Program-made: the position numbers and the translations under genes | Part shown: in pieces, positions 4,674 to 62,668 of the stretch | Position numbering within the stretch: the stretch's first letter is position 1 | How the letters are laid out: every line of letters begins with the position of its first letter | The notes under the pieces: generated by a model | Seen by the model: the letters and a program-made list of their open reading frames with translations, nothing else | Database searches by the model: none | Told to the model about the DNA's origin: nothing | Assembly: GCA_030737835.1 (NCBI GenBank) | Contig: JAUJYN010000015.1 | Location: forward strand, 1,060,954-1,124,953 | DNA from: Acorus gramineus | Taxonomy: Eukaryota > Streptophyta > Magnoliopsida > Acorales > Acoraceae | Length of the DNA stretch: 64,000 nucleotides | Reading direction: 5' to 3'

Positions 4674-6289
4674 TAATTGTTATGTTATCGTGCATGTAGT
4701 TCATGTACATAACTATGATATAATTCTCCTGTAATATATATGCGCATGTTAAAACTGATTAGGCTATCTGAAATAGGAGTGGGTATGACCCGCTATCGGG
4801 TTGTACCTTATTAGTTAGAGCGCTAGCGATGTAATCGCCCCCTTGCATCCGAGCGATGCACTCGATTGGAATTCAGGAGAATTCATTATCATATCGGTTT
4901 TGTTAAGCCGATGGTTTTGGCATTAAGCTAGGCCTATCCATGTTAGGCGAGTGTATGAACCGCCTGTTGGGTTATGCCTTGGGCTTATCTCTGTGCGAGA
5001 GCAGAGGTGACTCCCTGCGTCTGAGCGACGCATCTCTATGGGAGTTCAAGCATATTTTGATAGCATCGGTATGGGATTACCGAGGATAGTTGATTTTCCA
5101 TAGGGTTTTCATTGCGAATGCGAAGTCTTCCTCCCAATATCGTCATGCACCGAATCCCTAGTGTCGAAGCTGTCCTGTGTAGTGCCACCACTTGTAAGTG
5201 CTACCGATGCGTACTGTTGTACCCATCTGGCTTATGTACCAATCGTGGAAGGCCGATAGGTAGAGGCTACGCGGGAGAGGGCTACCAGACGATATTGCGA
5301 GCGTGGAATCATTCTCCCCCTTCATCGAATCCGCGTTGAAGGTGCCCAATGTTGAAACTGTCCTGACAGAGGGCTTTCACTTGTAGGTACTACCGATGCG
5401 TTTGGCAGATGTACTGATCATGGTAGTATACCAGGTAGAGGCTACTCGGGAGAGGGCTACCGGATGACGAAGGGTGTAGAGCAAAAAGGATTCTCCCAAC
5501 AGTCCCGTGTCACCCTTAGGGCTGTGGTTGAAGGTGAGTTGAAGTCACGTCGTCACGTGACTCATATACCCATCGAGTATACTCTAGGTATGCAGCTCCT
5601 AACGCTTGAGGTATTGAAGTATATCTCTACATCGTAGCGGATGGGCTCATTGTATCTTGTTATCCAGTAACACCATTTGTTATGGTTAACAGTTGTTCCT
5701 CCCCTAGTGTCCCAAAAGCCTCCCTCCGGGAAGTGAGGATGAGAGCAAGGTATGGTTGCGCCGTTGCGTGACCTTGTTATCCTTTGGATTTCTACCCATG
5801 TTTTTCGTTGAAAGGAAATTGCCTTAGTATTGAATTGTTGTGATGGTGTTTGGTTTTCAGCCACTTGTTGAGCTTGTAGCTCACCCCTCGCATATTGTTT
5901 CTTTTACAGGGTCGGTGTTAGGCATAGAGCTGGAGCTTCCCTGTGGCGTGGTCTTGCGTGTGTGGAGCGTTCCGTCTAGCGGGTGCCAAGTGCGAGGCTG
6001 TCAGCAGTCCTAGAGTCATGTATTTGTTAATCGTGCGTGTTGCACTATTTGTACTTTATTTGGACAAGACTTGACTCTCATAGGACAGTGATTGTGTATT
6101 TGAGTCTGCAATAATGTTTTGGTTTACAAACTTAGTGATGTTTTATGCTTCCGCTTTTCAGTGAGCTATCAGTTATCATTGCTTTGTTAGCCTTATAAGT
6201 TTTATTGGCATCATTGTTGACCTCTTGTACTGATTGCTGATATTATATATATTGTCACATCTCGGGAACGGCCACCCTGGGGCATGACA
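4674..6289 (+). mobile_element. Truncated LTR fragment, same family as the LTR at 57673-61360
   Basis: Similarity to the large solo LTR begins abruptly at 4674 (matching about 59770 in that copy) and runs to the terminus GGGGCATGACA at 6289, an LTR end. Shared landmarks include the tandem ACCGATGCGT and GGTAGAGGCTAC blocks, the GAGCTTGTAGCTCACC block near 5870 and the CTCATAGGACAG block near 6078. Roughly the first half of the LTR is missing. It abuts another LTR fragment directly. Fossil. Confidence 0.75.
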
Positions 6290-7955
6290 GTACGCACGAG
6301 CACGTGCGAGCGTGCGCGCGCGGCTGGCAGTGCACGCAGGTGCGCACGCAGGGCAGTGTGCGTGGGCTGTCTGAGGGCTTGGGTAGGTGTTGGGGGGCTT
6401 GGGCATGCATGCGAGCCCGTATGCGTGCATGTCTAAGTCTTTGGCATTTCTAGTTAATTCTAAGTTTTTTTATGTAGTTATATTCACCGTATGAGATGCC
6501 TTTGTCTTGTAAATCTGGGCGAACGGTCACGCAACGACCTGGGTTGCGATGAGTTGGTCAATCCAACCTAGTTGGAAGGCGTTCGATGCACGTATACGTG
6601 CATTGCCCTCCCCTGGGGTACCATAACTGCATATTAAACTTGTTGCATGTATATGTTATTGCCTGTCTTGCTAGGTTGCATCCATGCCATATTAGATATA
6701 GTATGCTAGGACTATGCATCTTTGTATCATGTGTAGGGACCCATACTTGTCTAGGCATCATGTCTCATGCTAGCATAACATTGATTCTTACATGCACCCA
6801 TCTCGCCTAAGAATATTCTTAGCCTACCTAGGAATACATAAGTGTAAGCATGCCTTAGATAGTATTGTAACCTTGTTGCCATATTTATTTAATGCCTCCA
6901 TGATTAATTCCTTGTGTAATTATTATGCATCTTGTATCTTTTATATATGCTTATAATTAAGCCATGAACCTTGCCTAATGAGGTTAGGCAAGTGTATGAC
7001 CCCTTATGGGGTCATACCATGGCATTAGATATGAATCGTATGTCTTCCCCACATCCGAGTTATGCGCCCTGGAGGGAATTCATGAGAATTCGTTACCTTA
7101 TCAATGTCTAATAACCGGTGATGATGGATCCATGAGAATTGTGTCAACGAGTGTCAAGTGTTCTCCCTTTCGTCGGCTCGGTGTTGAAGCTGCCCGGCAT
7201 TGTAGCTGTCCTGCGAGGTGCTCCCAGGTACTACTCATGACGCTTGTTGGTGCGCCCATACAGTAGAGGTAGTGGTCATGGGAGGCTACCAGGTAGAGGC
7301 TACCCGGGAGAGGGCTACCGGATGACGAATGGTGTAGAACAAGCGAACTTCTCTCGATAGTCCTATGTCACCCTGCGAGGGTGAGGGAGAGTGTGTGGTG
7401 GGCTCGGGTTGATACATGACCCACGAGCTTAAGGGGTTACTCCCATCTTGTTTGGTCCTTAAATGCTTGAAATGTTAAATATGAGTTGTGTTTCATGAAT
7501 TGTACCATTCACGGAGCATGTGGCTCACCCCTCGCATTTGTTTCCTCCAATTGGCGTCGAGTCGGATCTGAAGAAGGAGCTCCCGTAGGCGCGGTATCAG
7601 CAGCGGTGCAGCGTCCATGTCTAGGATTTTGTGAGTGAGAGGCCATCAACATCCCCCTTTTCTTGTATGTATTTGTTACTCGTGCTTGTGCAAAATACAT
7701 GTATATTGATGTCTTTTGGTTTATATTGGCTCTCACAGGACAGTTGATTATGTAATCTGGTCTGTAAAGTATTTTTGGATTACAAACTTAGTTGTTTAGC
7801 TTCCGCTATATGCATGTATATATATTGTAACAGCTATCGCTTGATTAATTGCTTTGTTGCCTTGGATGTTGTGTAGAGTTTTTATTGATCTCGTTATAGA
7901 TAACTGATATTATATATTTGCCACGTCTCGAGGACGGCCGCCCTAGGGCGTGACA
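6290..7955 (+). mobile_element. Truncated LTR fragment with TGTCACGCC-type terminus
   Basis: It starts inside the GC-rich low-complexity part of an LTR and ends with GGGCGTGACA at 7955, the reverse complement of the TGTCACGCCC start seen at 424, 33220 and 39225. Landmarks shared with intact LTRs are the GAGAATTC-containing block near 7077, a GAGGGTGAGGG run near 7377, the ACGGAGCATGTGGCTCACC block near 7512 and the CTCACAGGACAG block near 7731. The first third of the LTR is absent. Fossil. Confidence 0.75.
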
Positions 7956-33219: not shown

Positions 33220-36200
33220 TGTCACGCCCTAGGGCTGGCCAACCCCGGGACGCGACAGGTGCATGTATCATATCAGAAGCCTACACAGGAGGTCAATAAT
33301 ATATATCATACACAGACAACTAGAATGACACACATGCAACAAAAGGGGCTGACATGATATATACACCAAATGCGGAAGCAAAGACTGAATCTGTGAATAA
33401 ACATTCTACAGACTCGATACTCAATCATCTGTCCTGTGAGAGCCAATATACACAAATACAACTGAACATATACAAACACGTGCCAAGCACGGAAATCAAA
33501 TACATACAGTCAAGAAGGGATGCTGATAACCTCTGGCACTCGCGGAACGTGGCGCTGCTCCGCTACTGAAGAAATCCCTCGGAAAGCTCCAACTGCTGCT
33601 CCGGCTCTAGCTCAGGCTCAGTGACCACTGGGGAAAAACATGTGCGAGGGGTGAGCCACACGCTCAGTGAACAGCACAACCCACGCAACACAGACAATAT
33701 TTACCACAATATTCCATTATTTTAATCCAGCCATCAATACATAACAAGATAAACCAGTGGTTCGTACTTCGCCGAACCACCACACCCTCACCCTCACCCA
33801 TCCATGGGTGACATAGGATTTTGGGACTGATAATCATCTATTCACAAATCCAGTAGGTCGCTCATCGCCAACCCACTACACCCTCACCCTCACCCTACCA
33901 CGGGTGACATAGGATTTTGGGACTGACTAGGCTGTTGGTCACCCTTGGTCCACCGATAGTCTCTCCCTCCACTCCGTAGGCCGCCTGGTCTACTCCCACA
34001 TTCGGCACAGTCCGAAACCAAATCAGGAGGTGCCTACTAATGGGAGCCCTCTGTCAGGAAGGCCCTGTCTAACGCTGGGGGTAGCCTCTACCGAATCCAA
34101 CGCAGGGAACAGAACAGCCTATCCATACGCCTATGATCCACTCGGATCCGCCAACTACATATCATTACCACTCAAATGTCATGAACTCTTTAGAGTTCCT
34201 CCAGCGCGCATAACCAAGATGCGGGGAAACAAGTACAATCAAAAGCAGTGTTGGAATATCACTGGGGGAAAGAAACTCGGGAGGGCGGCGTGAGTTCCCG
34301 ATACAGGGTACCCCGACAACCAAACAAGGAACACGGAGTACCCTAACACGGGTCTCACCGCTGTCCTCGCAAGGTCCCTCCCCTATAATATTCACTACTC
34401 ATGCTAATAATCATACCAAACACACAACTCTACCGTTCTGAATTCCTCAGAACCCACCAGGGCGCATAACTACGATGCGGGGAACATGCATAAGGTTATA
34501 ACAGGGTGGAATATCATTGGGGGAAAGAAACTCGGGAGGGCAGCGTGAGTTCCCATTATAGGACACCCCGACAACCAAACAAGGAACACGGTGTACCCTA
34601 ACCCGGGTCTCACCGCTGTCCTCGCAAGGCCCCTCCCCTATAATATTCACTATAACATGCAATTTAACAAGTACTAGCATTTAATTTAATAAATAAACTA
34701 GTAGGACGCATACATAGGTCGAGGTTTCCTAACATGAAGCAGGAGGCATGGTGCATGGCTCTTACACCTATCCTATGGGTGCAAGTCCCTAACAGAAAAG
34801 CCTAGGGTAACATGCATTTCTACATATTCATCAGGCTCACATGCAATACATATTATTACAGGTTAATATAATCCACGGTGCCCCAGGAGAGGTCGGTATA
34901 CGCCCAAGTGCGTATAACACCTCTCTACTGGGTTGGATTGTCCCACTCACCAGAATCGGGGTCGACGCGCGACCGTCCGTCTAGATCTGCAAGACAGACA
35001 TTCACTGGTTAGAATAAATCCATAATGACCCCAAAATACATAACACACACAAATAGACACCCAACACCCCCCGGCAACCACCCGCACGGCCGGCCACCAC
35101 CCGCCCGGGCACCCGACCGCCCGGGCGCACCGCCGCGCCTCGGCCCGCGCACCGCCGGGCCCCTGCCCGCCGCCGAGACACACCGCCGAGCTTCCCGGGG
35201 CACCCCGCACGCCCCCGCGCGCAGCGCCCCGCCCCGCGCGCACCTCCGCCACCTCGCGCGCACCTCGCACGCTCCTCGCACACCTTGCCGCACCTCGCGC
35301 GCACCTCGCACGCACCTCGCCGCACCTCCGCGCACCACCGCGGCCTCACCGCGGCCTCCGCGCACCGCCACGCACCCTCAGCCACGGCCTCGCGCACGCC
35401 ACGGCCTCGCGCACGCCATCCGCACCCTCAGCCACGGCCTCGCGCACGCCGCGGCCTCGCGCACGCCATCCGCGCACCCGCGCGACCCGCTCCACGCGCA
35501 TCAGCCGCCCAGCTCGCCCAGCACCGGCCAGCACCCTGCACCAGGCCCGCGCGCCCTCGCGCGCACGCCGCGCGTACGCGCGCCCGCGCACGCACGCGCG
35601 CCTGCCCGCGCGCACCCGACCTGGCGCCGCCTGGGTTGCTGCTGCTGCTGCTGCTTGGCCCGGACGACCTGCCACTGCCCGAGCGCCACCACCACCCCTC
35701 CCTTGACCACCGACCACCCTCCGACCACCTCCGACCACCCTCCGACGACCCCCACTGCCGCCGACCACCCCCAAACACCCAACCCACCTTCCTAGCATTC
35801 ATCTATGCAAGAAAAAGAGGGAAAGGAGGCTTACCGAGGGGAGGGGAAGACGTTCGGTAGCTCTCCGCGCGCCGAAACCTTCCTCAAAGGCTCTCCCACG
35901 CCCCGATCTATCACGGCCCTCGATTTGGCTCGAAACAGAGGAGAGAGAGAGGAGGTCGGGGAGGCTAGGATCGTCGGAATTCGGATTTGAAGACACCGGA
36001 GTGTAGATCGGGACCCGATCTACACTTCCCGTGCTTTGGGTTTTCGATTTTGAGGGGTGGAGGGGGCTCAAACGGAAGAAAAACGGAGGAGAGGAGAGAG
36101 AAATCACGTCGGGAGATGATGAATAGTGTATGATTTTTGATTCTTTTATATAGAGCGCGACTTAAAAACCCGGATACGCCCCGGAACTGCGAAATTTTTG

Positions 36201-36414: not shown

Positions 36415-36479
36415 TTCTTCCCCCCTTAGGAAATTTTGTCCTCAAAATATGCAAAAACATCTAGGAGGGGAAAAGATGC

Positions 36480-37000
36480 GTCACACCTGGCATCCCTTGA
36501 GCTCCTAAGTGTCCTTAACACCGGAACGGTGCTGCCATCGCACCTCGACCAACTGGACGGTCTTGGTGCAGAGCCTCCTCACGCGGCGGTCCATGATCTC
36601 AATCGACTGCTCCACGAATGACTGTCCGGCTCAGAGACGAGCGGCCCGAACGGAATGACGTGAGCAGGATCACGGACACCTTTACCCAACTGCGAACCCA
36701 CCACTCCAAGACGGAGAGGTAAGAATTGGCGCTGAGGTGAGCCTCCGAGTAAACTCCAGGAAGCTCTCCTCGCAAGACGGGGACCACTCGAACCGGACAT
36801 CCTTCCGAGTAAGGCGGTTAAGAGGAACAGCTATCTTCGAGAGACCCTCGTCAAGCTTCCTTCAATAACCCTCCAGACTCGGGAAGCTCCGAATCCTTGC
36901 GGGGTTCGACGGTCGACGCCAATAAGACGCGACGAGCGTCTTGCCCGGGTCCACAGATATTCCTTTACCAGAAATCACCCAGCCCAAAAGGCCTTAACCT
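36480..37000 (-). pseudogene. gypsy pol relics (integrase end and RT-RNase H pieces)
   Basis: On the - strand, one piece near 36960-36800 resembles the block after the reverse transcriptase (GWVISGKGISVDPGK, then LTRKDVRFEWSP), and another near 36600-36500 resembles the end of gypsy integrase (EQSIEIMDRRVRRL). Most of pol is absent. Fossil. Confidence 0.65.
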
Positions 37001-37029
37001 CTAACCAAAACTCACATTTGATCTACCAT

Positions 37030-37735
37030 CCATCTGATGCTTCCATGGTATCCCTTACCTGGGAAAAGAAACCTCGAGAGGGCACCATGGAATCCCGATA
37101 TAGGATACCCCGACAACCAAACAAGGAACACGAAGTACCCTAGCCCGGGTTCCAACGCCGACCTCACAAGGCCCCTTAATCCAGAAAGGAACACTGGAGG
37201 AAGACATCATTTAAAAGAATACCACTAACTCCTCCGGATCATCTACATCTAGATGATCACCCAACGATGTCATTCAACATCCTTTGCAAGACCGACCCAA
37301 CATCATTGGGAACGGTCCAACAGAAATTGGGTCACGAGCGACCCGCCTTCGCCTCATCCACACCCTCACTCCCGAAAGGAGACATTTTGGGACTTTGGGA
37401 GAGACTTAGACTGCTCTCTACCCCTGGTCCACCGGTAGCCTCTCCCCGCTCCGTAGCTCGCCTGGTCCTCTGACCGGGAGCCTGTCTAACGCCGGGGCTG
37501 TACTACGCGGATCCAACTAAGGGGAGAGCGATTCCACGCTCGCGACACCATTCAATAACCTCTTACCGGGTAGCCCCTACCTAGCATACTCCCAAATTTA
37601 GTACCCCTCCGACTGCATCGGCGGTACCTACTGATGGGAACTCACTGCCAGGACGGCTATAACCCGGCTTCCTTAACCCAAACAACCGCTCTTGACACTC
37701 ACTCATCCAGATACCCCACACACTTGCATAATAAC
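37030..37735. repeat. LTR-like segment inside the gypsy internal domain
   Basis: This stretch repeats pieces of the element's own LTR type: the CCCCGACAACCAAACAAGGA block near 37106, the CTGGTCCACCGGTAGCC block near 37422 and the GGTACCTACTGATGGGA block near 37623. It sits between the pol relics and gag where pol should be, in the same direction as the LTRs. It suggests past recombination with an LTR. Confidence 0.6.
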
Positions 37736-37757
37736 CACCAATTACACACACATATCC

Positions 37758-39105
37758 TTATACTAGAAGCTGGGAACACAAGATGATACCTCGAACCATG
37801 ACACCCGAAGGCTGCGCCTCCTCGGCCGTAAGCGCTGCAACTCTGCCTTGAACCAACCGCGGCTGAGGAACAGGAGCACGCCTCGGCCGCTGCACTGGCT
37901 GCTGCTGGCGCTGAGGCTGCTGCTGCTGCTGGCCCGGAAGCTGCTGCTGCAAGAACGGCGGCTGCGGAGGCATCACTCGGGGCCGATCGGCATCAGGGCA
38001 ATTGTATCTGATATGCCCGATGCGCTGACAATGAAAACAGCGCCGCTTCTCCGGCTGCCAGGACTGGATGGGCACTGCTGCAATGGGTGTTGGATCCCAT
38101 ACTGGCACCGCATCTGCTGGAGGAGAGGCAGCCGCTGACTGCTCGAAGCGGGGCCTCTTCCTCTTGCGCTGCCCCTGGTCCCGACTCCCGGAAGGACCCT
38201 GATCTGAAGAAGGGGTCGGAGCCCGCACTTGAATCCCGAGGTCTCTCTCGACGGTCTTCGCCCGAGACCAAGTCGGAGAACCTCGTGAAAGCCTGGGCGG
38301 TGACGTGCACCGGATGGCATTGCTCAGACCGAGCTCAAACCGACGGCACCTCGTCCCCTCATCCATCACCAGGCTGGAGCGAACCTGGAAAGGCTCGTGA
38401 AGCGCGTAGAGTAGTCAGCGACGGACATAGTGCCCTGAGTCAGCTGCTCAAACTCCCGCTCCACTAGCTGCCGCGCCGAGAACGGGAAGTACTCATCCAA
38501 GAAGTACCTCCGGAAACCCGCCCATGAAAGCCGCTCCACTCCCTCTGGAATGTCCACCACTCGGGTAGCCCACCAGTCGGCGGCGTCACCCTTCAACATA
38601 AAGGTGGCCAGACTCGCTGGCGATCGGTGCAAAGCATGGCCGCGAAGATCACATCCACCTCCCTCAACCAACGCTCTGGCGCAAGAGGATCTGCCGACTG
38701 CCCATGAAACTCGGGAGGATGGAGCTTCAGAAAGGCGTTGAGGCCGCTCTGCTGCACCCGCGCTGCCGCCTCTAGCTCCTCCTCCCTCTGCAGGGGATCC
38801 TCAACTCCAACTGCCGGAACTGCCACCGGAACTGGGGGTACATCGGGTACCACAGGCGGATCTACCACCAAGGGGACCGGCGGAACTGCCTCGCGGGTCG
38901 CCCTCAGCTCCTGAATCTCCCTAGCCTGCTCTGCAATCATCCGCGTCTGTGTCTCCACCAAATCTGCCAACCGAGCGAAAGCACGCTCCCAAGCAGGTGG
39001 CTCCTGCGTCAAGGGCTCTCCGGTAGCATCCTCGTCTCTGGTAGGTCCGGAAACCTCCAAAGACCGAGAGGGACCTCGTCCGCGCCGTCCTCTGCGAGGA
39101 GGCAT
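37758..39105 (-). pseudogene. gypsy gag region with zinc knuckle
   Basis: In element sense it starts at 39105 with a basic MPPRRGRRGRG end, then a Pro/Val-rich stretch, a retrotransposon-gag-type core (FMLKGDAADWW near 38600, FRRYFLDEYFP near 38510) and a CCHC zinc knuckle CFHCQRIGHIRYNCP (about 38042-37998), followed by a Gln/Pro-rich tail. Gag packages the element RNA in virus-like particles. The region is broken. The knuckle and core place it in Ty3/gypsy. Confidence 0.85.
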
Positions 39106-39224
39106 ATCAGCACCCTAAGAAAACCAGACACTAGGATCAGAATACTCACATCGAAATCCTAGGACTCATCTCTACGAAAGGAAGACTATTGGCTCTGACA
39201 GGACCAGGCTCTGATACCAACTTT

Positions 39225-42200
39225 TGTCACGCCCCAGGGCGGCCAACCCCGGGACGCGACAGGTGCATGTATCATATCAGAAGCCTACACAGGAGGTCAA
39301 TAATATATATCATACACAGACAACTAGAATGACACACATGCAACAAAAGAGCTGACATGATATATATACACCAAATGCGGAAGCAAAAGACTGAATCTGT
39401 GAATAAACATTCTACAGACTCGATACTCAATCATACGTCCTGTGAGAGCCAATATACACAAATACAACTGAACATATACAAACACGTGCCAAGCACGGAA
39501 ATCAAATACATACAGTCAAGAAGGGATGCTGATAACCTCTGGTACTCGCGGACGTAGCGCTGCTCCGCTACTGAAGAAATCCCTCGGAAAGCTCCAACTG
39601 CTGCTCCGGCTCTAGCTCAGGCTCAGTGACCACTGGGGAAAAACATGTGCGAGGGGTGAGCCACACGCTCAGTGAACAGCACAACCCACGCAACACAGAC
39701 AATATTTACCACAATATTCCATTATTTTATCCAGCCATCAATACATAACAAGATAAACCAGTGGTTCGTACTTCGCCGAACCACCACACCCTCACCCTCA
39801 CCCATCCATGGGTGACATAGGATTTTGGGACTGATAATCATCTATTCACAAATCCAGTAGGTCGCTCATCGCCAACCCACTACACCCTCACCCTCACCCT
39901 ACCACGGGTGACATAGGATTTTGGGACTGACTAGGCTGTTGGTCACCCTTGGTCCACCGATAGTCTCTCCCTCCACTCCGTAGGCCGCCTGGTCTACTCC
40001 CACATTCAGCACAGTCCGAAACCAAATCAGGAGGTGCCTACTAATGGGAGCCCTCTGTCAGGAAGGCCCTGTCTAACGCTGGGGGTAGCCTCTACCGAAT
40101 CCAACGCAGGGAACAGAACAGCCTATCCATACGCATATGATCCACTCGGATCCGCCAACTACATATCATTACACTCAAATGTCATGAACTCTTAGAGTTC
40201 CTCCAGCGCGCATAACCAAGATGCGGGGAAACAAGTACAATCAAAAGCAGTGTTGGAATATCACTGGGGGAAAGAAACTCGGGAGGGCGGCGTGAGTTCC
40301 CGATACAGGGTACCCCGACAACCAAACAAGGAACACGGAGTACCCTAACACGGGTCTCACCGCTGTCCTCGCAAGGTCCCTCCCCTATAATATTCACTAC
40401 TCATGCTAATAATCATACCAAACATACAACTCTACCGTTCTGAATTCCTCAGAACCCACCAGGGCGCATAACTACGATGCGGGGAACATGCATAAGGTTA
40501 TAACAGGGTGGAATATCATTGGGGGAAAGAAACTCGGGAGGGCAGCGTGAGTTCCCATTATAGGACACCCCGACAACCAAACAAGGAACACGGTGTACCC
40601 TAACCCGGGTCTCACCGCTGTCCTCGCAAGGCCCCTCCCCTATAATATTCACTATAACATGCAATTTAACAAGTACTAGCATTTAATTTAATAAATAAAC
40701 TAGTAGCACGCATACATAGGGCGAGGTTTCCTAACATGAAACGGGGGACATGCTGCATGGCTCTTACACCTATCCTATGGGTGCAAGTCCCTAACAGAAA
40801 AGCCTAGGGTAACATGCATTTCTACATATTCATCAGGCTCACATGCAATACATATTATTACAGGTTAATATAATCCACGGTGCCCCAGGAGAGGTCGGTA
40901 TACGCCCAAGTGCGTATAACACCTCTCTACTGGGTTGGATTGTCCCACTCACCAGAATCGGGGTCGTCGCGCGACCGCCCGTCTAGATCTGCAAGACAGA
41001 CATTCACTGGTTAGAATAAATCCATAATGACCCCAAAATACATAACACACACAAATAGACACCCAACACCCCCCGGCAACCACCCGCACGGCCGGCCACC
41101 ACCCGCACGGCCACCCGACCGCCCGGGCGCACCGCCGCGCCTCGGCCCGCGCACCGCCGGGCCCCTGCCCGCCGCCGAGACACACCGCCGAGCTTCCCGG
41201 GGCACCCCGCACGCCCCCGCGCGCAGCGCCCCGCCCCGCGCGCACCTCCGCCACCTCGCGCGCACCTCGCACGCTCCTCGCACACCTTGCCGCACCTCGC
41301 GCGCACCTCGCACGCCTTGCCGCACCTCGCGCGCACCTCGCACGCACCTCGCCGCACCTCCGCGCACCACCGCGGCCTCACCGCGGCCTCCGCGCACCGC
41401 CACGCACCCTCAGCCACGGCCTCGCGCACGCCACGGCCTCGCGCACGCCATCCGCACCCTCAGCCACGGCCTCGCGCACGCCACGGCCTCGCGCACGCCA
41501 TCCGCGCACCCGCGCGACCCGCTCCACGCGCATCAGCCGCCCAGCTCGCCCAGCACCGGCCTCTGCTCGCCCAGCACCGGCCTCTGCTCGCCCAGCACCG
41601 GCCTCTGCTCGCCCAGCACCGGCCAGCACCCTGCACCAGGCCCGCGCGCCCTCGCGCGCACGCCGCGCGTACGCGCGCCCGCGCACGCACGCGCGCCCGC
41701 CCGCGCGCACCCGACCTGCGCGCCGCCTGGGCTGCTGATGCTGCTGCTGACTGGCCCGGACGACCTGCCCCTGTCCGCGCGCCACCACCACCACCACCCT
41801 TGACCACCGACCCCCTCCAACCACCTCCGACCACCCTCCGACCACCACCATTGCCGCCGACCACCCCCAAACACCAAACCCAGCCCTCTAACACGCATTC
41901 ACGCAAGAAAAAGAGGGAAAGGAGGCTTACCGAGGGGAGGGGAAGACGTTCGGTAGCCCTTCGCGCGCCGAAACCTTCCTCAAAGGCTCTCCCACGCCCC
42001 GATCTATCACGGCCTTCAATTTGACTCGAAACAGAGGAGAGAGAGAGGAGGTCGGGAAGGCTAGGGTCGTCGGAAATCGGATTTGAAGACACCGGAGCGT
42101 AGATCGGGACTCGATCTACACTTCCCGTGCTTTGGGTTTTCGATTTCGAGGGGTGGAGGGGGCTCAAACGGAAGAAAAACGGAGGAGAGGAGAGAGAGAG

Positions 42201-42515
42201 CTAGTCGGGAAGATGATGAATAGTGCTACTCGATTTTAAATTCCTTTTAAGTAGAGCGCGACTTAAAAACCCGGATACGCCCCGGAACTGGGAAATTTTT
42301 GCAAACGATGCCAGAATTCGATGAAACTTTCATGAGAGGTCTAAAATGGCGCCAGGACACCAAATATGCAGTCAGATTTCCAATCGGAGTCCTCTAGCTC
42401 AGACGATAGCTAACAGTCTGAAATTATGCGGTTCCGACCAAAAACCCTAAAAATTTTAAAACTGCCAGGACGCTCTAACGGTTACCAGCAGGCTAAAAGT
42501 GACACAAATATAACA
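39225..42515 (-). repeat. 5' LTR of the gypsy-type element
   Basis: 3291 bases, nearly identical to 33220-36414. The main length differences are a 30-base repeat gain near 41311-41340 and a 21-base minisatellite at 41544. It carries the same GC-rich stretch (41050-41850) and the same 36-base block (about 40954-40989). Confidence 0.9.
41544..41624. repeat. 21-base minisatellite in one LTR only
   Basis: Three full tandem copies and a fourth partial copy of a unit starting GCTCGCCCAGCACCGG. The partner LTR has a single copy near 35511, so the array grew in this LTR after or during insertion. Confidence 0.85.
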
Positions 42516-44689: not shown

Positions 44690-46098
44690 GGATGACATTG
44701 CCGAACCAACATGTTTTTCTCAAGCCAATATGGATCCTCTTTGGCGGAAAGCTATGGATGATGAGATTAATGCTCTTATTACTAATGGGAATTGGAGTTT
44801 AGTTCCTTCAACAGGTCATATTAACGTGGTTGGTTGCAAATGGGGTCTTCAAAGTGAAAAGAAAATTTGATGGGTAAGTTGATCGCTATAAAGCAAGACT
44901 TGTAGCAAAAGGCTTCAATCAGCAAGAAGGGATCGACTATGGAGAAACCTTCAGTCCGGTTGTCAAACCTTGCACCATTCAAGCTGTCCTTAGCATTGCC
45001 ATCTCCAATGGTTGGCCACTTCATCAACTTGATGTTCAAAATGCATTTCTACATTGTGTCCTTGATGAAGAGGTCTACATGAAGCAACCCCTAGGATTCA
45101 TTGACGCTCGGTTTCCCACTCATGTGTGTCATCTCTACAAGTCACTCTATGCTCTCAAGCAGGCACCCCATGCATGGTATCATTGTCTTAGCCTCTTTTT
45201 TCATGATGTTGGTTTTATGGGATCCAAAACTGTCACTTCCCTCTTCATCAAGCGCACATCACAATCGATTATGTTTATCCTTGTTTATGTTGATGATATC
45301 ATTGTTACTGGATCTCACATGGATTGCATCCAAGAGCTTATTTCTCAGCTACAGACTTTGCTATCAAGGACCTTGGTGTCTTGAATTATTTTTTGGGGAT
45401 ACAAGCACAACGCTCCTCCACCGGCTTGTTTCTCTCACGGCGAAAGTACATTGTCGATCTCTTGAAGAAAGCTAAAATGGATGGTGCCAAACCTTCCTCT
45501 ACTCCTATCAGCAGTACTGAAACCCTTTCCAAGTTTAATGGATCTGCCCTCAGTGATCCCTCCCTATATAGAAGTGTGGTTGGCTCTCTTCAGTACCTCA
45601 CTCTAACACGTCATGACCTTGCCTATGCAGTAAACAAGGTCTGTTAGTTCATGCAGGCTCCAATAGATACCCATTGGCATGCCGTTAAACGAATTCTTTG
45701 CTACCTCAAGCATATGGTCTTCAACTTAGAGCATCATCGTCTACCTACCGAAGTGCATTTTCTGACTCTGATTGGGCTGGGTGTCTTGATGATCGCACCT
45801 CTACTAGTTGATATTGCATGTTCCTTGGAACGAATATTATCTCTTAGAGTGCTAGAAAACAGAAGACCGGTTCCCACTTTAGGACGGAGGCTCAATATAG
45901 AGAATTATCCATTGCTATAGCTGAACTTATTTGGATCCAATCTCTACTCAGTGAGCTTGGCCTTCCATCTGCATCACCCCCTACCCTATGGTGTTATAAT
46001 CTAGGGGCAACCTACCTTATTTCTAATCCCATCTTTCATGCTCGCACTAACCATATCGAAATTGACTATCACTTTGTGCGTGAAAAGGTTGCTAAAAA
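44690..46098 (+). pseudogene. copia reverse transcriptase and RNase H region
   Basis: Reverse-transcriptase blocks include [11 protein letters not shown] near 45020, [12 protein letters not shown] near 45140, the catalytic YVDD at 45286-45297 and LTRHDLAYAVN near 45605. RNase H follows from about 45690 and is interrupted at 46098 by the solo LTR; its last part continues at 49351-49440 (KDQVADVFTKGL). Broken. Confidence 0.85.
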
Positions 46099-49000
46099 TG
46101 TTATATATGTGTCACTTTTAACCTTCTGGTCAGCGTTGGGACATTCTGGCAGTTTTTCGGTTTTTTTCGTTTTTCGATCGGAACCGCTAAAATCTTGGAC
46201 TGTTAGCTATCGTCCTGAGTTTGAGGACTCCGATCGAGAATCTAACTGCATATTATGTGTCCCGGTGACATTCCAAGCCACTCACAAAAGTTTCATCGAA
46301 TTCCGGTAACGTTTCAGAATTTCACAGTTCCGCGGCGTATCCGGGTTTTGACCGAGCGAGAAGTCATTGGGAGAGTTGACTTGGTCAAAGTGGACCCATG
46401 ACTTGGTCAACCCCTTTTGTTTTTTTGTGTGGTTGGGTTGACCCAAGTCAAATCTCACTTAAGCCTCCCTAATGCTAGCTTAAACCATAATTAACCTAGC
46501 TTAGCCTAATCTAATTGTGGGGATTATATTTAAGTGAATCTAAAATATCTCCCCCACTATTCATCTTCTTCTCCAATTTGATTTCTCTCTCCCCCTCTCA
46601 CTTTTTCTTGATTTTGACCTAGCTAGAGAGGTTAGAATAAAAAAACACAAAGAAGAGAAAGGTTAGATCTCATCCCGATCTATCCACCGGTGGTTTCGGA
46701 TTCGAGTTCCCACGAGTTTGACCCCCTCTAACCCCCTCTTTTCTCCTCAGATTTCAGCTGGTTTTGGGGCTGAGGGAGGTCTTGGTGTTGGTGGCCTTTG
46801 GGGAGGTGTTTCGGTGCGCGAAGAGCAACCGATCTTCCCCTTCCTTCCTCTCTTTCTTTGGGTAAGCCTTCTTTCTTTCCTTTCTTGTTTAGATGCTTGT
46901 TAGGAGGATGTTTTTGAGTTGGGGTGGTTGTGGGTGGCCGTTGGTGGCGGTCGGAGGCAGTTAGAGGCCATTGGTGGCCGGTGAGAAGTGGTAGAGTGGC
47001 TCGGGCAGGGTGCTGGGCTGTCCCGGGTGGTCTGGCAGGCAGGCAGGGCAGCGCAAGCAGGCAGTGCTCGGGCAGGCAGGCGCGTTGGGGGCGTGCTGGT
47101 AGGCACGCTGGGGGCGTGTGCTGTCAGGCGTGCGAGCGAGCGGGTGCTGGGCGCTGGGCGTGTGCTATCGGGCGCAGGCAGGGTAGCGTGGGCGTGCGCG
47201 TGGGCGTGCACGCGGGTGGAGCTCGGTTCGGGCGCATGCGGGCAGCGGCGCGCGCAGGCAGGCAGGCGCAGGCTGGCGGCGCAGGCAGGCAGGCGCAGGC
47301 GGGTGAGCTGCGGGCAGGCGCGCTGGGCACGTGCTGACGGGCTCGCTGGGCGCGTGCGGTCGGGCGCGCTGGGCGCAGTGCGCGGCGTGCGAGCGGAGTG
47401 CTGCGCAGGGGCGCGTGGACGAGCGGGTGGTGTGCGGGTGCTGCGCAGGGGGCGTGGTGCGCGCAGGGCGAGCCAGTGGTGCGAGCGGGTGATGCGAGCG
47501 GGTGGTGCGCGCGGGGTGCGGCGTTGGGGCGCTGGGCGTGCGGGTGTGCGCGCAGGTTGCTGCGCTGGGGCGCAGTGGGCGCGCGGTGCACCCGGGAGGC
47601 TCGGCGGGTTGTCCGGGCGTGTGGGCTGGGCTCGGCCGTGCGACTGGACGCGCGGGCTGAGGCGCGGCTGTACGCCTGGGTCGGGTGGCCGTGCGTACGG
47701 CTACCGGGGGGTTCGGGAGCGAGTCGAAGTGCTCGGGCTCGCGTGCGTACAGGCCGTATGTACGCTTGTCCGAGTGTTTTGTATTTTAATGTATTTTTGG
47801 ATTTATTTGTGTATTTTACTCACCGATTTGATTGCCCTATCTTGCAAATCTTGACGGACGGTCGCGCGACGACCCGACTACCTGTGAGTGGGACAATCCA
47901 ACCCAGTAGGGAGGCGTTATATGCACTTGGGCGTATACCGTCCTTCCCTGGGGCACCATGGATTTATATTAACTTGTTGTAATATGTAATCCATGCAAGC
48001 ATGATAAAAATGTAGTATGCATGCTACCCTAGACTTTGTATGTTAGGGACTTGCACCCTTAGGATATGTGTAAGAGCCATGCATCCTGTCACCCTGTTAT
48101 CATGCTAGGAAGCCTCGACCTATGCATGCGCCCTATTAGTTTGATTTATTAAATTAAATGCTAGTATATGTTTAATTGCATGCCTTAGATAATATTATAG
48201 GGAGGGGCCTTGCGAGGTCAACATTGAGACCCGGGCTAGGGTACTCCGTGTTCCTTGTTTGGTTGTCGGGATGTCCTATATCGGGACCTCACGCTGCCCT
48301 CCCAAGGTTTCTTTCCCAATAATATTGTCACCTTGCTATTATTATTATTATTCATGTTCCCCGCATCTTGGTTATGCTCCCTGGAGGGAATTCTGAAGAA
48401 TTCATGGCATTAGAGTTGTTGTGATGTGTTGTCTGCGGATCCGAGTGGATCATATGCGATGGATAGGCTGTTCTGTTCCCTTCGTTGGATCCGTGTAGAG
48501 ACTACCCCGGCGTTGGTAAGGCTATCCCGTGCAGGGGCTCCCATCAGTAGGCACCTTCTGATTTGGGACGGACTGTGCTGAATGTGGGGGTGGCCAAATG
48601 GCCTACGGAGTGGGGAGAGACTATCAGTGGACCAAGGGTGACCATCAGCCTAGTCAGTCGCAATATCCTATGTCACCATATTGAGGGGTGAGGGTGAGGG
48701 TGTAGTGGGTTGGCGATAGCGACCCACTGGTTTGTGTAGTCCCAATATCCTATGTCACCTATTGAGGGGTGAGGGTGAGGGTGTGGTGGGTCGGCGATGT
48801 AGCGACCCACTGGATTTGTGTAGTTTCCTGCCACCTTGAGGCTTGTGTAATGATAATTGTGGTTAATAATATCTGGTTGTGGTTAATATAAGCTGTGATG
48901 CATGGGTTGTGCTGCTCACTGAGCGTGTGGCTCACCCCTCGCATAATATTTTTCTCCAGTGCTATCTGAGTCGGATCTAGAGGAGGAGCTCCCTGAGGGA

Positions 49001-49345
49001 TTTCATCAGTAGCGGAGCAGCGCCACGTCCCGCGAGTATCAGAGGCTATCAGCATCCCTTGTGATTGTATGTGTTATATTCTGTGCTTGGGCACGCGTTG
49101 TATTTGTTTGGATGTCTTTGTATATATTGGCTCTCACAGGACATTTGATTATGTATCGAGTCTGTAGTATGTTTTTGGATTACAGACTCAATCTTTTAGC
49201 TTTCGCTGTTTGTGTATATATTATGCCAGCCTTGTTTTTGTCTGTGTTGTCATTTTAGCTGTTGTGTGAGTATGTTATTGAACTCCTATTTGGACTGATA
49301 TCCTATAAACACTTGCCGTGTCCCGGGGACGCCCGGGGCGTGACA
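46099..49345 (+). mobile_element. Solo LTR inserted in the copia RNase H region
   Basis: 3247 bases from TGTTATATATGTGTC to GGGGCGTGACA, the inverted equivalent of the paired LTRs at 33220 and 39225. The 5-base duplication AAAAA lies on both sides (46094-46098 and 49346-49350) and copia sequence continues exactly across it. Parts: TATA-like TATATTTAA near 46526, donor-like GGTAAGC at 46861, GC-rich stretch 46980-47720, the short conserved block near 47845-47885, two G-quadruplex motifs (48684-48709 and 48765-48790) and an acceptor-like block ending CTCCAG at 48959. It is more diverged than the gypsy pair, so older than that insertion. Confidence 0.92.
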
Positions 49346-49488
49346 AAAAAGGGACTTAATGTACGGTTCATCTCCTCCAAGGATCAAGTTGCAGATGTTT
49401 TCACAAAGGGCTTAAGTGTTGCACGCCTTGCTTTTCTTTGAGACATGCTGACCGTTCACAGTGGCCCGCTCAACTTGCAGGGGCGCAT

Positions 49489-49751
49489 TGAAGCAAGTTC
49501 TCATGGACCCAAGGACATGATCCACGAGCCAGCTAGCAATCCTCTAATTGAGGAAACGTCTCCAACCTAGACATTTCAGTTACCTATTTTATAGCAATCA
49601 ATTATTATGTTTGTAGTCCGCTAATTGATTATATGTCTCTTACTATCTTTGTAATCCTCTAATTGAGGAAACATTTTTTGAATTATTTCATAAATACAAA
49701 CACCAACCCAAAAAAATGGGTAAGAGTGATTCAATAATATTCTCACATTCA
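49489..49751 (+). repeat. Right LTR of the copia fossil
   Basis: 263 bases, matching 31561-31822. A purine-rich GCAGGGGCG tract lies just before it. Confidence 0.9.
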
Positions 49752-50364: not shown

Positions 50365-51210
50365 TGTTATGCCCTTGTCATTTGGAGCCATTTCGGTTAA
50401 GCCTTGGTCACTTCTGGGTCATTCAGGGCCTTTTTAATTTTTTGATCGGAGCCGCTAAAATTTTGGCTTTTAGCCACCTGCGGGAGTTAGAGTACTCTGA
50501 TTGGAAATCTGACTGCATATTATGGGTCCTGGTACCGTTTAGTACTACTCATAAAAATTTCATCGAATTCCGGTAACGTTTGGAAAAATATGCAGTTCCG
50601 AATCGTATCCGGGTTTTCGAGAGTTCCTGGTTGGGCGAATAGTGTGAGATATTTTGGGGATGTGGTGACCCTTGGTAACCTTACCCCCACCTTGCTTAGG
50701 GGTGAAGAAACCTTTGGTTATTGGTTATGTGAGTGGGTGAGCCTAACCCTAACCTCACCCCCCCCCTTAAGGTCACCCCTAGGCACTATTTGGGCATGAA
50801 AAAGACTTTTTTGCCCTCTCTCTCTCTCCCCCTCTCTCCCAACTCGTGGATCTCTCTCTCTCCCTCTCTTGGTCTCTTTTTCCTCTCTTTGTGTGTGGAG
50901 AAGGAGGAGGAAGAAGCAAAGGAAGGAGAAGGTGAAGGAGAAGATGAATAGTGTATGAAGGGATGATCTAGCTAGGGTGAGTTTGTGTGTGTGTATGTGT
51001 TGTTGTTTCTTTCCCTTCTCCATCTCCAACCCTCTCATGCCTCCCCTCATGTTTTCCTCTGTTTTTCAGCCAAGAAGGGCTGGTGGAGAGGCTGAAGAGA
51101 TGGTGGTAGTAGTGGTGGTGGTTGAGGTGGTCGTGGGTGTGTTGATAACCCCACATCTCCCCATTTCCCTCCCCCTGTTTCGGTAAGGCAGCTCACTTTC
51201 TCTTAAAGAT
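50365..51210 (+). mobile_element. 5' part of an LTR related to 57673-61360
   Basis: Begins TGTTATGCCC and follows the first 800 bases of the solo LTR at 57673 closely, including the GTACCGTTTAGTACTAC block, a CT-rich tract and a donor-like GGTAAGG near 51183. It ends where another element fragment starts at 51281. Fossil fragment. Confidence 0.75.
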
Positions 51211-57340: not shown

Positions 57341-60300
57341 TTCTGCATTGTGGACCCATTATCCATAATCAAGATAACAGTTGCATTCATAAAATAGGCA
57401 TGATGCAGTCATGATATAAATATAATTAGTTTCAAAATCTATGTAGAGACTAGACCCACTCACCTTAGGTCCAATGACACAGAAACAACCCCAGAAGGCC
57501 TAAAGCACTCTAGTCAGACCTGAAACAATGTGAACCGATCAAAATACATACATATAGTACAAAACCTGATGGTACCCGTACATGCAGAAAATGGCGGCTC
57601 CCACAGAGACTGTCACTGACCAACCCGACGGCTCCCATTGGGGCCGTTACTAACAAATCTGGTTGCTCCCATTGTTATGCCTGTGTCATTTGGAGCCATT
57701 TTGGTTAAGCCTTGGTCACATCTGGGTCATTTAGGGCCTTTTTCTTTTTTGATCGGAGTCGCTAAAATTTTGGCTTTTAACCACCTACGGGAGTTGGAGT
57801 ACTCTGATTGAAAATCTAACTGTATATTATGGGTCCTGGTACCGTTTAGTACTACCCATAAAAATTTTATCGAATTTCGGTAATGTTTTGAAAAATATGC
57901 AGTTTTGAATCGCATTTAGGTTTGGCCGTTACTAGGTTTTGGTGGGTGAGATATTTTCAAGTGTGTGGTGCTTCTCCGCACGCTTCCCAATAAAGCAAAA
58001 AATGAGTGGTTGAGTGAGGGTGAGCCTAACCCTAACCTCACCACCCCCTTACGGTCACCACTAGACACTATTTGGGCTTGAAAATGACATTTTTGCCCTC
58101 TCTCTCTCTTCCCCTCTCTCCCATTTCGTGGAACACTTTCTCTCCCTCTCTTGGTCTCTTTCTTTTCCCCTCTCTGTGTGTGGAGAAGGAGGAGGAAGAA
58201 GCAAATGAAGGAGAAGGTGAAGAAGGAAGCACAAAAAAGGTGAGTTTTGTGTATGTGTTGTTGTTGTTGTGGTTCCTCCTCTCTCAAGCTCCCTCTCATG
58301 TCTTCCCCCACCCCCTGTTTTTCAGCCAAAGAAGGCTGAGGAGGGCTGTGGAGGTAGTGGTAGTGGTGGTGGTGGTCGAGGTGGTCGCGAGTGCATCGAC
58401 GGCCCCCGAATCTCTCCCTTTCATTCCCCTTCCCTTGGTGAGCTCTTCCCCTTCTTTTCTTTGGTTTTTCATGGCTTTAGGGGTTGTTGGGAAGTTGTGC
58501 ATGCTACGTAGTTGGTTTAGGGTGAGTGAGGAGTGTGGGGGATGGGTTAAAGGGGGTTAAATTGTTGCTTGGCACGTGCGCAGGTTCGTCCGCGCGCGTG
58601 CGCGCGCAAACGGGCGCGCAGAAGGGCGCAGGCTGGCGGGTGCACGTGCGCGCGGGTGCGCGAGTGAGCGCGGAGCAGGCGCTGGCAACACGTGCAGTGC
58701 AGGCGAGTAGTGCGCGTGAGTGTGGACGGGCACCCGCAAGCGTGCGTGCGCGCGGGGCAGCGTGTCTGGGCGCGCCTGGGCATGCGACAGAGTGCCAGTG
58801 CGCGCGTGCGTGTGCGTGCACGTGCGTGCAGGGGCATGCGCGGGGCTGCCTAGGGGCTCGGGTAGGTGCTAGGGCACTCGGGCATGCGTGCGTACGCGCG
58901 TGCTCGCATGCGTGCGAGCCCGTATGCGTGCATGTCTATGTCTTTGGTATTTCTAGTAAATTTCTAAGTGTTATAATGTGGTTATACTCACCATTCTGAT
59001 GCCCTTACCTTGCAGATCTCAGTCGGATGTGATGCGCGAGGTCTCGGGTTGTGGTAAGTGGTTTGATCCAACTCCTCGAGATGCGCTCGACGCGCGTAGT
59101 CGTGCGTTGCGCATCGATGGGGCACCCTAGCTATACTACTTGTGTAGATAAGTTGTATGGCCATGCTTAAACTATAATATTTTAGACATCTTTCATGCTA
59201 GGCTTATATTGCATGTATTGTATCCATTTATGAATGACTGTATCACATGCGTCCCTCTAGTATGGGCATGTATTCTGTAATGTGTATGGATGTATAGAAT
59301 AGGCATGCCTTAGGTAGTATTGTAATACTACTCCCACCATATTAATTGGAATATCCAGCATGATTAAGTCTGTGTTAATAACGGGCACCTGCCTAATATT
59401 CCCTTGCGATAAGACTCGAGGGCGTGGTGTAGTTGTTGCGCCCATGATAATGGGGCAAATCTATGACCAACTTCACGAGATGATGATCTCTCTCGCCCTC
59501 TCCCTCTGCACGAACTGAGTAAGTAGATGCGATTTCCTACTCGACTCAGGTTCGTTTGGAATATTGGCATGCACCTGTTAGTGCGCGAGATCGCGGTTGA
59601 CCCTTTCTTTTAAGTTGGTGATATCCAACGCATGCTTAAGTTATGCCTTGTGTGCTTATATGATTAATGGCCATGTATGCATGTTTAAGTGAGCCATTCC
59701 TTGTATGTATGTTGTATGATTTGTTGTTTATGATGTAAATCCATGTTAGGGGTAACCCTTATAGTCAATTGTTAGATGATCGTGCATATGGTTCATGCAC
59801 ATAGCTATGATATGATTCTCCTGTTATATATGCGCACATGTTAAAACTAATTAGGCCTATCTGAAGCCGACGTGGGTACGACCCGCCGTTGGGATGTACC
59901 TCATTAGTTAGTGTGCGAGCGATGTAATCGCCCCTGCATCCGTGTGATGCACTTGAATGGAATTAAGGAGAATTCATTTGTTGTATCGGTTTTGTTAAAC
60001 CGGTAACTTGGGCATTAAGTTAGGTGATTATCGAGAGTAGTTGTTCTTCCATTGGGTTCGCTTTGCGAACATGGAGTGTTTCCCCCCAATGTCATCCGTG
60101 TTGAAGCGGGTCGGGTTGTAGATGTCCTGACAGAGGGACCCCACCTGTAGGTACTATCGATGCATGTGACAAGATGTACTGATCATGGGGGTATACCAGG
60201 TAGAGGCTACCCGGAAGAGGGCTAACGAATGATATTGCGAGCGTAAAATCGTTCTCCCCTTCGTTGGATCCGATGTAGGAACTCCCCGGCGTTGGAAAAG

Positions 60301-62668
60301 CTGTCCTGACAGAGGGCTCCCATCCGTAGGTACTACCGATGCGTTCGGGAACGTACTGATCGTGGGAGTATACCAGGTAGAGGCTACCCGGGGAAAAAGC
60401 TACCGGTGGACCAAGGGTGTAGAGCAGTCTAATCTCTTTCAAAACTCCTATGTCACCTCTAAAGGGTGAGGGTGAGGATGAGGTGAAGACACTTCGCCGC
60501 ATGACCCATTCGTTGTTTGTCCGTTCCCATAGTTGTTGGGTCCGGTTGTGTATCGATGTTCAAAGACATCGTTGGGCAGTTATCTCGATGTAGATGATCC
60601 AATAGTGTTGTGTAGACCAGTAATTCCGCATCTCTTCGACCAACGGTATGGTCTCTCCCCAAAAGTCCCAAGAGTCTCCCTCCGGGAGTGAGGGTGAGGG
60701 TGAGGTCGGTGATCCAGTAGTGTTGTGTAGACCAGTAATCCCGCGTCTCTTCGACCAACGGTATGGTCTCTCCCCAAAATTCACAAGAGTCTTCCTCCAG
60801 GAGTGAGGGTGAGGGCGAGGTTGGTCGCGCTGCCGCGTGACCTTGTTATCCATTAGTCTCCCACCCATGTTTTCTTTGAAAGGAAATTGCCTTAACATTG
60901 AACTGTTGTAATGGTGATTGGTTTCCAGCCACTCACTGAGCTTGTAGCTCACCCTCGCATACTGTTTCTTTTCAGGGGCAGTGTTGGGCGTGGAGCTGGA
61001 GCTTCCCTGTGACGTGGTCTTATGTGCGTGGAGCGTTCTGTCCGGCGGGTGGCGAGTGCGAGGCTGTCAGCAGTCCTATAGTCATTTTATGTATTGTAAA
61101 TCATGCATATGGCACAAGTTGTATTTTTTTGGACTAGACTTGGCTCTCACAGGACAGTGATTGTGTATTCGAGTATGTAATAATGTTTTTAGTTTACAGA
61201 CATTGTTGATATCTTATGCTTTCGCTTTTCAGTCAGTTATCATTTATCTTTGCTTTGCCACCTTGTGTGTTGTTGTTGGAGTCTTTGTTGACCTCAGGTA
61301 TTGATAGCTGATACTTTTTACATTGCCGTGTCTCGGGGACGACTGCCCTGGGGCGTGACATCCATAGGGGCCCCGTCCGAAACATACTCGGCGGCTCTCA
61401 TTGGAGTCATCCCGAGGTAGAAGCATGAAACCCTAAATTTTTTTGTAGAAATACTTTAAAACATCTACCATTGAAAACAAGACAAAAGTCGTTTTTAAAA
61501 CGTTTGTTAATCAGAAAAGAATCAATTGTCGAAATCAAATCATTCGTACCAAAAATCCGATTAAAACCAATCAAAACTCTTTGAAAATATCTTTGAAAAC
61601 CCTAGGTCTATCATAGGTATAAATAACCAATATGGATCTACGTTTAAACCCCAAAAATCATAGATATATGCATAGGTTCGGATCTATGTGTCCAAGGTTC
61701 AAAATAAGGCATAAGGATCATAAAAACATGATTTCTACCTTAACGAATTAACCTAAATATGGTATCTACATAAGCATATTTATTTTTACATGAAAGGCTT
61801 ACAAACCATCTTTAAAAAAAAAAGACTTAACATCATGGCTATATCATAAAATCCCACACCCTTTAAAATCATATGAAAATCCAATAAGAAAACCTAAGAA
61901 AGCATAAACTTCCAATATATTCATGTGAGACATAATACTATCATCAAAGCTTACAAAAACATCATAAAATCATCATTATATCATTGTTAAAACATAGCAA
62001 TTCAAAATCATGCGAAAACGCCTAAGAAACAAGAAGAAAACCATCCTCTTTGTTTGGAAAACCTTGAAAACGAGATCATATTAAAAGAACATCTAAAGGG
62101 AATCATTATAAACCAAAAACTCTTCAAAACTCTTTAGAAAACTCACCTAAACCCTTGCTCGAGTTCCCTTCCCGAGCCCCTCAACAATGGTGTCAAAAAC
62201 AAGAAAAAGAAGATCTTTTAGGTTTGAAATTTCTAGGGTTTCAAGGCAATGAAAGAGAAAAAGTGGTTTATAAGCCTCTCATACATGTGAGGAAACAATT
62301 ACGAAGCCAATAATTTGCATTAATCCCGATTAATGCACTTGTTCCTTCCAAAAATGAAACCTATTTTTGAAAATACGATTTTCCAGATTGACGGCTCCTA
62401 TAGCATCCGTCACCCAGGTTTCCGACAGCTCTCCCCGATCCGTCGCCCATGTGCCCGACGGCAGCTATAAGATCCGTCAGACATTGTCTGACACCCTGTT
62501 ACTGTTTGGTCCATAGCTTGATCTATACGGATCTGATTTATGATCGGTAGAAAGCGTTGGAAAGCAAACAAAACGAGGAATCTAACCACGCCAAACCATT
62601 ATAAATTTGGAATACTAATCATACCATAAAAGCAGGTTAATTACGGCCTAAAAGTCAGAGTCGTACAA
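57341..62668 (-). mobile_element. Older LTR split by the solo LTR at 57673-61360
   Basis: The pieces 57341-57672 and 61366-62668 flank the inserted LTR. GGCTCCCATTGG-type repeats occur on both sides (57590-57670 and 61370-61415), showing they were once contiguous. The right end GTCGTACA at 62668 resembles the GACGTTACA end of the element at 56985. Donor-like CTCACCTAAACC lies near 62143. Its own left end is not clear. Confidence 0.5.
57673..61360 (+). mobile_element. Solo LTR, 3.7 kb
   Basis: Runs from TGTTATGCC to GGGGCGTGACA. Flanks CCCAT (57668-57672) and TCCAT (61361-61365) are a 5-base duplication with one mismatch. It contains a donor-like GGTGAGC near 58437, a GC-rich stretch (58570-58960), a 38-base block 59016-59053 between TTGCAG and GTAAGTG, G-rich hexamer runs near 60465, 60690 and 60800, and an acceptor-like block ending TTTTCAG near 60974. 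There is no internal domain. Fossil. Confidence 0.85.

Follow-up and report, generated by a model that had tools for sequence, protein, structure and literature searches.

Splicing has been described in a few plant LTR retrotransposons. In Ogre, a Ty3/gypsy element of the Tat group in legumes, only some of the transcripts are spliced (as given in the available portion of PMC6317226), and in the Ty1/copia elements BARE1 of barley and EVADE of Arabidopsis splicing favours Gag production, with separate RNA pools for translation and replication in the case of BARE (available portions of PMC3735527 and PMC12786077). For Diaspora, a Ty3/gypsy element of soybean with a very long leader, donors in the LTR and acceptors flanking the gag start have been predicted; in the same 2005 paper, as far as its available portion goes, no introns upstream of gag had been reported (PMC1142308). 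A 2025 review treats Ogre and EVADE as notable intron-bearing exceptions among plant LTR elements and recounts the TyH3 experiment, in which loss of an intron from the new copy shows an RNA intermediate (PMC12786077, in part). Other splicing is described in PMC7730604, PMC12992720, and PMC7010299. Searches of the open-access literature turned up no description of introns that lie entirely within an LTR, which is not proof of absence. In the leaders of retroviruses such as HTLV and the foamy viruses, a donor in R/U5 separates RNA fates; the acceptors of these introns lie in internal genes, and the introns are not known to be contained in the LTR.

The element examined here would resemble Ogre as a plant LTR retrotransposon with partly spliced RNA (PMC6317226, available portion). 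In BARE1 and EVADE, as far as the available text of the sources goes, splicing takes place at or behind the gag end and creates a stop, whereas the introns predicted here lie upstream of gag; the arrangement typical of Ogre, BARE, and EVADE, with an intron inside, behind, or between coding regions, was not found, as predicted introns 0 to 2 are confined to the LTR and intron 3 stops short of gag. The Diaspora introns are a medium-confidence prediction only (PMC1142308, available portion), whereas genomic footprints support one intron in the present element. Finally, the TyH3 intron was inserted by the experimenters (PMC12786077, in part), whereas in the present element the same kind of record comes from introns native to its LTRs.

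The window, a 64,000-nucleotide stretch of contig C53 in the 398.6 Mb genome of Acorus gramineus, holds several related long LTRs that start with TGTTAT and end with GGGCGTGACA, besides partial ones:

46099-49345 (+), LTR A, a solo LTR of 3,247 bases with TG...CA ends and AAAAA at both flanks
42515-39225 (-), LTR B1, the 5' LTR of element B, with TSD TGCAT and the PBS directly after it
39209-39220 (-), PBS of element B, TGGTATCAGAGC, adjoining LTR B1
38366-39105 (-), gag start ATGCCTCCTCGC and gag pieces of element B, with Retrotrans_gag at E 1.3e-16 in one piece
36414-33220 (-), 3' LTR of element B, with the same exon and intron signals and a donor at 35835
2979-424 (-), LTR D, a solo LTR with TSD GTCTT
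57673-61360 (+), LTR C, a related long LTR, probably solo

Element B has the features of an LTR retrotransposon, namely TG...CA LTRs, a TSD, a PBS, a polypurine tract (AAGGGGGGAAGAA) before the 3' LTR, and gag, which was scanned as separate open pieces and whose zinc knuckle scored 19.4 bits, slightly under the 20.8-bit cut-off. Because only ~2.8 kb, with the gag pieces, separate its LTRs (36415-39224), it is probably non-autonomous. The PBS directly after LTR B1 fixes the direction of transcription, as in the first-pass annotation. The retrotransposon is probably of Ty3/gypsy type, and may belong with the Tekay/Del chromoviruses given its long LTRs, termini, and PBS. These families are large, with 5,088-6,478 first-look candidates in each of four genome searches. 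LTR A is embedded in a copia-like coding stretch (45900-46098 and 49346-49500, read by eye). At 50365-51182 the start of a C-like LTR runs into a donor-like site and soon after into other repeats; the donor that had been placed near 51183 is this site, with the sequence GGTAAGG at 51182. At C53:778-815 kb, copies match window LTRs A, B, and C at 93, 94, and 99%, which suggests a segmental duplication.

Within these LTRs we predict the following exons and introns:

46556-46861 (+), LTR A exon 1, no ATG, from the start-site-like ACTATTCATC to donor GG/GTAAGC
46862-47847 (+), LTR A intron 1, 986 nt, holding a GC-rich stretch; the homologous intron is precisely absent from junction copies
47848-47883 (+), LTR A exon 2, 36 nt, bounded by splice-like sites
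47884-48959 (+), LTR A intron 2, 1,076 nt, GTGAGTG ... GCTCACC ... TTTTTCTCCAG, with conserved sites
48960-49066 (+), LTR A exon 3, 107 nt, no ATG, followed by GTATGT at 49067
41931-42224 (-), LTR B1 exon 1, by homologous signals
40989-41930 (-), LTR B1 intron 1, 942 nt, by homologous signals
40953-40988 (-), LTR B1 exon 2, 36 nt, by homologous signals
39633-40952 (-), LTR B1 intron 2, 1,320 nt, with two tandem hairpin-block copies inside
39514-39632 (-), LTR B1 exon 3, 119 nt, no ATG, by homologous signals
39115-39513 (-), element B predicted intron 3, 399 nt, from the LTR GTATGT to TTTTCTTAG before gag, spanning the LTR end and PBS, by motifs only
2413-2324 (-), LTR D intron 0, with exon 1 ending at 2220, exon 2 at 1676-1641, and exon 3 from 813, by motifs
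58240-58325 (+), LTR C intron 0, with exon 1 ending at 58437, exon 2 at 59016-59053 (38 nt), and exon 3 from 60976, by motifs

The first-pass annotation had described a shared, ordered set of signals in LTRs of at least two families and both orientations, and its motifs are present: donors at 46861 (+), 2220 (-), 35835 (-), and 58437 (+), to which we add 41931 (-); a block of 36-38 bases at 47848-47883, 40988-40953, 1676-1641, and 59016-59053, and after TTGCAG at 34992 (-) in the 3' LTR of element B; and acceptors ending at 48959, 814, and 60975. The donor formula GGTRAGY is uninformative as a signal alone, with 47 occurrences on both strands of the window. In LTR A the block is preceded by TTGCAA at 47842-47847, so that the acceptor AG of exon 2 is broken; a copy with the same 3' flank, L012, apparently a segmental duplicate of LTR A, keeps TGCAG. 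The start-site-like ACTATTCATC occupies its place in the A and B LTRs but not in C or D. In LTR A it lies ~30 nt downstream of TATATTTAAG, and transcription may start there. An AATAAA-like stretch after this site might have served as a poly(A) signal, but this was rejected, as the stretch is absent from the other aligned copies. In LTR C of the window no donor 3 was recognised, GTATGT being absent. Exon 2 of LTR A and of other copies holds a palindrome, GTCGCGCGAC (47861-47870 in LTR A), which resembles dimerisation palindromes of retroviruses.

We evaluated these signals in an alignment of 35 related LTRs, five from the window, 12 of the A family (20 fetched, 13 with both ends), and 18 of the B family (20 fetched, 19 with both ends); loci L002-L008 were left out of the analysis. 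From 5' to 3' the sites follow the order of a pyrimidine-rich exon 1 end, GTAAG/GTGAG, CTNAC, TTGCAG, exon 2 (36 nt; 38 nt in C), GTGAGTG/GTAAGTG, GCTCACC ~24-27 nt before the second acceptor, CAG, and exon 3. Donor 1 has GT in 35/35 LTRs, acceptor 1 AG in 33/35, donor 2 GT in 34/35, and acceptor 2 AG in 34/35. The branch-like CTNAC lies ~21-26 nt before exon 2 in all 35, its fixed letters kept while N varies (C in 21, T in 12, A in 2), and an AG falls between it and acceptor 1 in 11 of the 35. Intron 1 has the GT...AG ends and branch motif expected of a spliceosomal intron. Plant introns are U-rich according to the available portion of PMC3735527, whereas intron 1 of LTR A is GC-rich instead, at 75-80% GC over 47000-47699. 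In further C and D pieces donor 1 is kept in 20/20, and a short intron 0 of 83-94 nt lies within exon 1 in 13/13 D and 6/7 C pieces. Of the 34 copies examined, 32 have the candidate donor 3, GTATGT, at 107-122 nt from the start of exon 3. In all five copies printed, the acceptor-like TGGTTTTCTTAG lies outside the LTR with its end 9 nt upstream of the gag ATG.

The earlier proposal that the motifs should be better conserved than their flanks held for the four cores, at a weighted conservation of 0.96-0.99 vs 0.74-0.86 in the +-60 flanks. It did not hold exclusively, as the cores stand at the 78th-83rd percentile of LTR columns with other LTR blocks equally conserved, and it failed for the second pyrimidine tract (0.81 vs 0.86) and for the two bases preceding donor 1 (0.72 vs 0.75). 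Selection acting on the splice sites is plausible, the aligned copies being related and their conservation counts not independent.

A spliced RNA, if reverse transcribed, should leave LTRs that miss exactly the intron. A pattern for the exon 1-exon 2 junction gave 36 zero-mismatch matches across the whole genome and 113 at up to one mismatch; the reversed pattern, used as a control, gave 0. Those with one mismatch are mostly altered acceptors, as judged from the matched letters of the 100 listed among the 113. We fetched 30 of the 36 zero-mismatch loci, and in all 30, picked as they were by the exact junction pattern, exon 1 is joined directly to exon 2 and intron 1, 543-1,182 nt long in intact copies, is missing. 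Projected onto the intact LTRs, both break points of every one of these copies coincide exactly with the donor and acceptor in one or more of the 35; the exon 1 match runs to the last base in 16 copies, and in the other 14 it stops 2-14 bases earlier and was continued ungapped through the pyrimidine block. Donor 2 reads GTGAGT in 29 of the 30. Four of these copies were extended downstream, and all four keep intron 2, its acceptor, and GTATGT, followed in three by a PBS. The pattern for an intact acceptor with exon 2 has 8,021 genome matches, so by these two patterns the intron-less forms amount to ~0.45% (36 vs 8,021).

The intron-1-less copies include A-like, B-like, and D-like LTRs, and some occur as pairs ~5.1 kb apart in which both LTRs lack the intron (C2:7693223/7698346, C54:738886/744001, and C78:713390/718478), with pair identities of 97.6, 94.8, and 99.3% over ~600 bases. 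The LTR starts of element B are 6.1 kb apart, so that the spacing of the intron-less pairs is shorter by about one intron, and the absence from both LTRs is expected if both receive their U5 from the template. The D-like L056, L057, and L063 lack intron 0 as well, by their printed letters. The intron 0 junction pattern, which does not recognise copies that are one T shorter, L057 and L063 among them, found one place, an exact match in L075; L077, which lacks intron 1, still shows intron 0-like signals.

Such copies might instead be ordinary deletions, which are common in LTRs, or an ancestral intron-less form, with splicing playing no part. A tree of 85 rows, based on the exonic flanks and the first part of intron 2 (20 rows with under half of the columns; intact copies biased to relatives of the window LTRs), requires a minimum of six changes of intron presence, five to six in bootstraps, of which four are forced by well-supported branches, and by itself it does not separate gain from loss. 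The breaks, on the other hand, fall at the GT and AG sites in every copy fetched by the exact pattern, a single base (G) is common to both break points, the changes forced on the tree are four, and among the matches to the exon 2-exon 3 pattern no comparable junction was recognised. The intron 1 signals are moreover common to the A, B, C, and D LTRs, so that the intron is old. We regard an origin of these copies without splicing as highly improbable. Because copies with exactly intron 1 removed occur in several lineages, its signals appear to be used by the spliceosome, and it is well supported, though indirectly from DNA, that intron 1 is spliced from RNA and that spliced RNA has been copied back into DNA.

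Equivalent searches for the remaining introns gave a different picture. Genome pattern searches for exon 2-exon 3 and exon 1-exon 3 junctions recognised none among the matches listed and fetched. The exon 2-exon 3 pattern, which with up to two mismatches allowed would recover 29 of 35 virtual junctions, gave 20 matches, all with two mismatches and by their letters without exon 2 (none fetched). A second junction pattern would catch 27 of 35 at up to one mismatch, both virtual counts coming from automatic parsing that misplaced sites in several rows; among the best 100 of its 3,512 matches, comprising eight with zero mismatches and 92 of the 3,504 with one, no junction was recognised, and two of the eight zero-mismatch loci, L064 and L065, proved on fetching to have mutated acceptors, as the other six appear to by their letters. 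If intron 2 were lost at the rate of intron 1, roughly 16 cases would be expected among ~3,500 exon 3 starts. The exon 3-gag junction had 0 matches in the genome; this absence is expected, since such an RNA would carry no PBS. A pattern for C-family exon 2 was uninformative: apart from the copy in the window it matched a single place, and the acceptor is ordinary in both.

That footprints exist for introns 1 and 0 only, at 36 junction vs 8,021 intact acceptor matches for intron 1 and with no other junction recognised, would fit a reading in which nothing but these two introns is spliced, the other sites being ancestral relics or chance occurrences, with introns 2 and 3 never removed. We consider this unlikely: conservation at donor 2, acceptor 2, and GTATGT equals that at the sites of intron 1, the depletion of AUG described below extends over exon 3, and an RNA without intron 3, having no PBS, would not be expected to leave a footprint. 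Introns 2 and 3 are predicted from their conserved sites.

In 31 of the 35 aligned rows we counted ATG triplets in the predicted exons and introns. Exons 1 to 3 together average 455 nt and hold 0.29 ATG vs a Markov expectation of 2.73, ATG being the most depleted of the 64 triplets; one or two ATGs occur in 6 of the 31 copies. The LTR introns hold a mean of 51.8 ATG, a count higher than for every other triplet made of these three letters. Dinucleotide shuffling, applied to four copies singly, gave weak results (P 0.015-0.082), so that the strength of the result lies in how well the copies, which are related, agree with one another. Once the three predicted introns are removed from element B, the first ATG is that of gag. 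The introns thus most likely serve to make a translatable gag mRNA, with the PBS-retaining RNA as the putative template and hence two RNA pools.

The first-pass annotation had read each solo LTR as a self-contained gene for a spliced non-coding RNA. Promoter-like, donor, exon 2, and acceptor signals do all lie inside the LTR, and the splicing of intron 1 that it proposed is supported by the precise-loss copies. The stand-alone RNA, however, is quite improbable: an end site within the LTR is not established, solo LTR A has itself lost its exon 2 acceptor, and, in the copies that have all sites, AUG-depleted exons up to donor 3 with an acceptor-like site outside the LTR, beside the gag ATG, form the pattern of an mRNA leader. 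A leader for gag fits better because the exons are AUG-depleted and the PBS, the gag start, and TGGTTTTCTTAG lie just outside the LTR.

Intron 2 of LTR A also contains a long hairpin block, which recurs in element B:

48200-48317 (+), conserved long hairpin block in LTR A intron 2
40264-40636 and 34262-34634, further hairpin blocks, the block being doubled in most B LTRs
37059-37176, further hairpin block in the internal part of element B

The ~118 nt block folds at -38.9 by alifold vs -17.8 +- 2.4 for 30 column-shuffled alignments, with 98% of cells paired across 29 distinct copies, a few double-sided changes, and a single-copy z of -2.4; two copies of it occur in 19 of 20 B-type LTRs. Rfam returned a single match, far below its cut-off. 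By BLAST the block was not found in LTRs C and D or in the intron-1-less copy L107, and it is therefore not a universal feature of intron 2. The hairpin may be a packaging or dimerisation element. One could go further and propose, tentatively and as a joint claim, that the kilobase-long LTRs hold gag leader introns through which splicing sorts two RNA fates, an mRNA to be translated, which is completely spliced, AUG-free, and without the PBS, and an RNA to be replicated, in which introns 2 and 3 are retained, and that intron 2 is kept in every template for packaging or reverse transcription, for instance for the hairpin of the A and B families.

Our preferred reading, to which we assign a probability of roughly 0.8, is that these LTRs contain a spliced 5' leader, that of a probable Ty3/gypsy retrotransposon, with introns 0 to 3 as modelled. 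Transcription would start inside the LTR; introns 1 and 2, plus intron 0 in the C and D families, would be removed wholly within it; and intron 3, which begins in the LTR, spans the PBS, and stops 9 nt short of the gag ATG, would be removed as well. The resulting gag mRNA would have a leader of ~455 nt with almost no AUG. The template for reverse transcription would be the RNA in which intron 3, and with it the PBS, is retained, and this template would sometimes already be without intron 1 (and, in some D-like copies, without intron 0). With the U5 of the 5' LTR copied into both LTRs, such a template would yield a new element with two intron-less LTRs.

This reading offers an explanation for kilobase-long LTRs and AUG-rich leaders, and the intron-less copies would document, in a natural setting, that spliced RNA goes through reverse transcription. 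It contradicts the statement on introns upstream of gag in the available portion of PMC1142308, and the element would join Ogre and EVADE, the exceptions named in the available portion of PMC12786077. It would also make testable, by RNA sequencing, how an LTR element separates the RNAs for translation and for replication.
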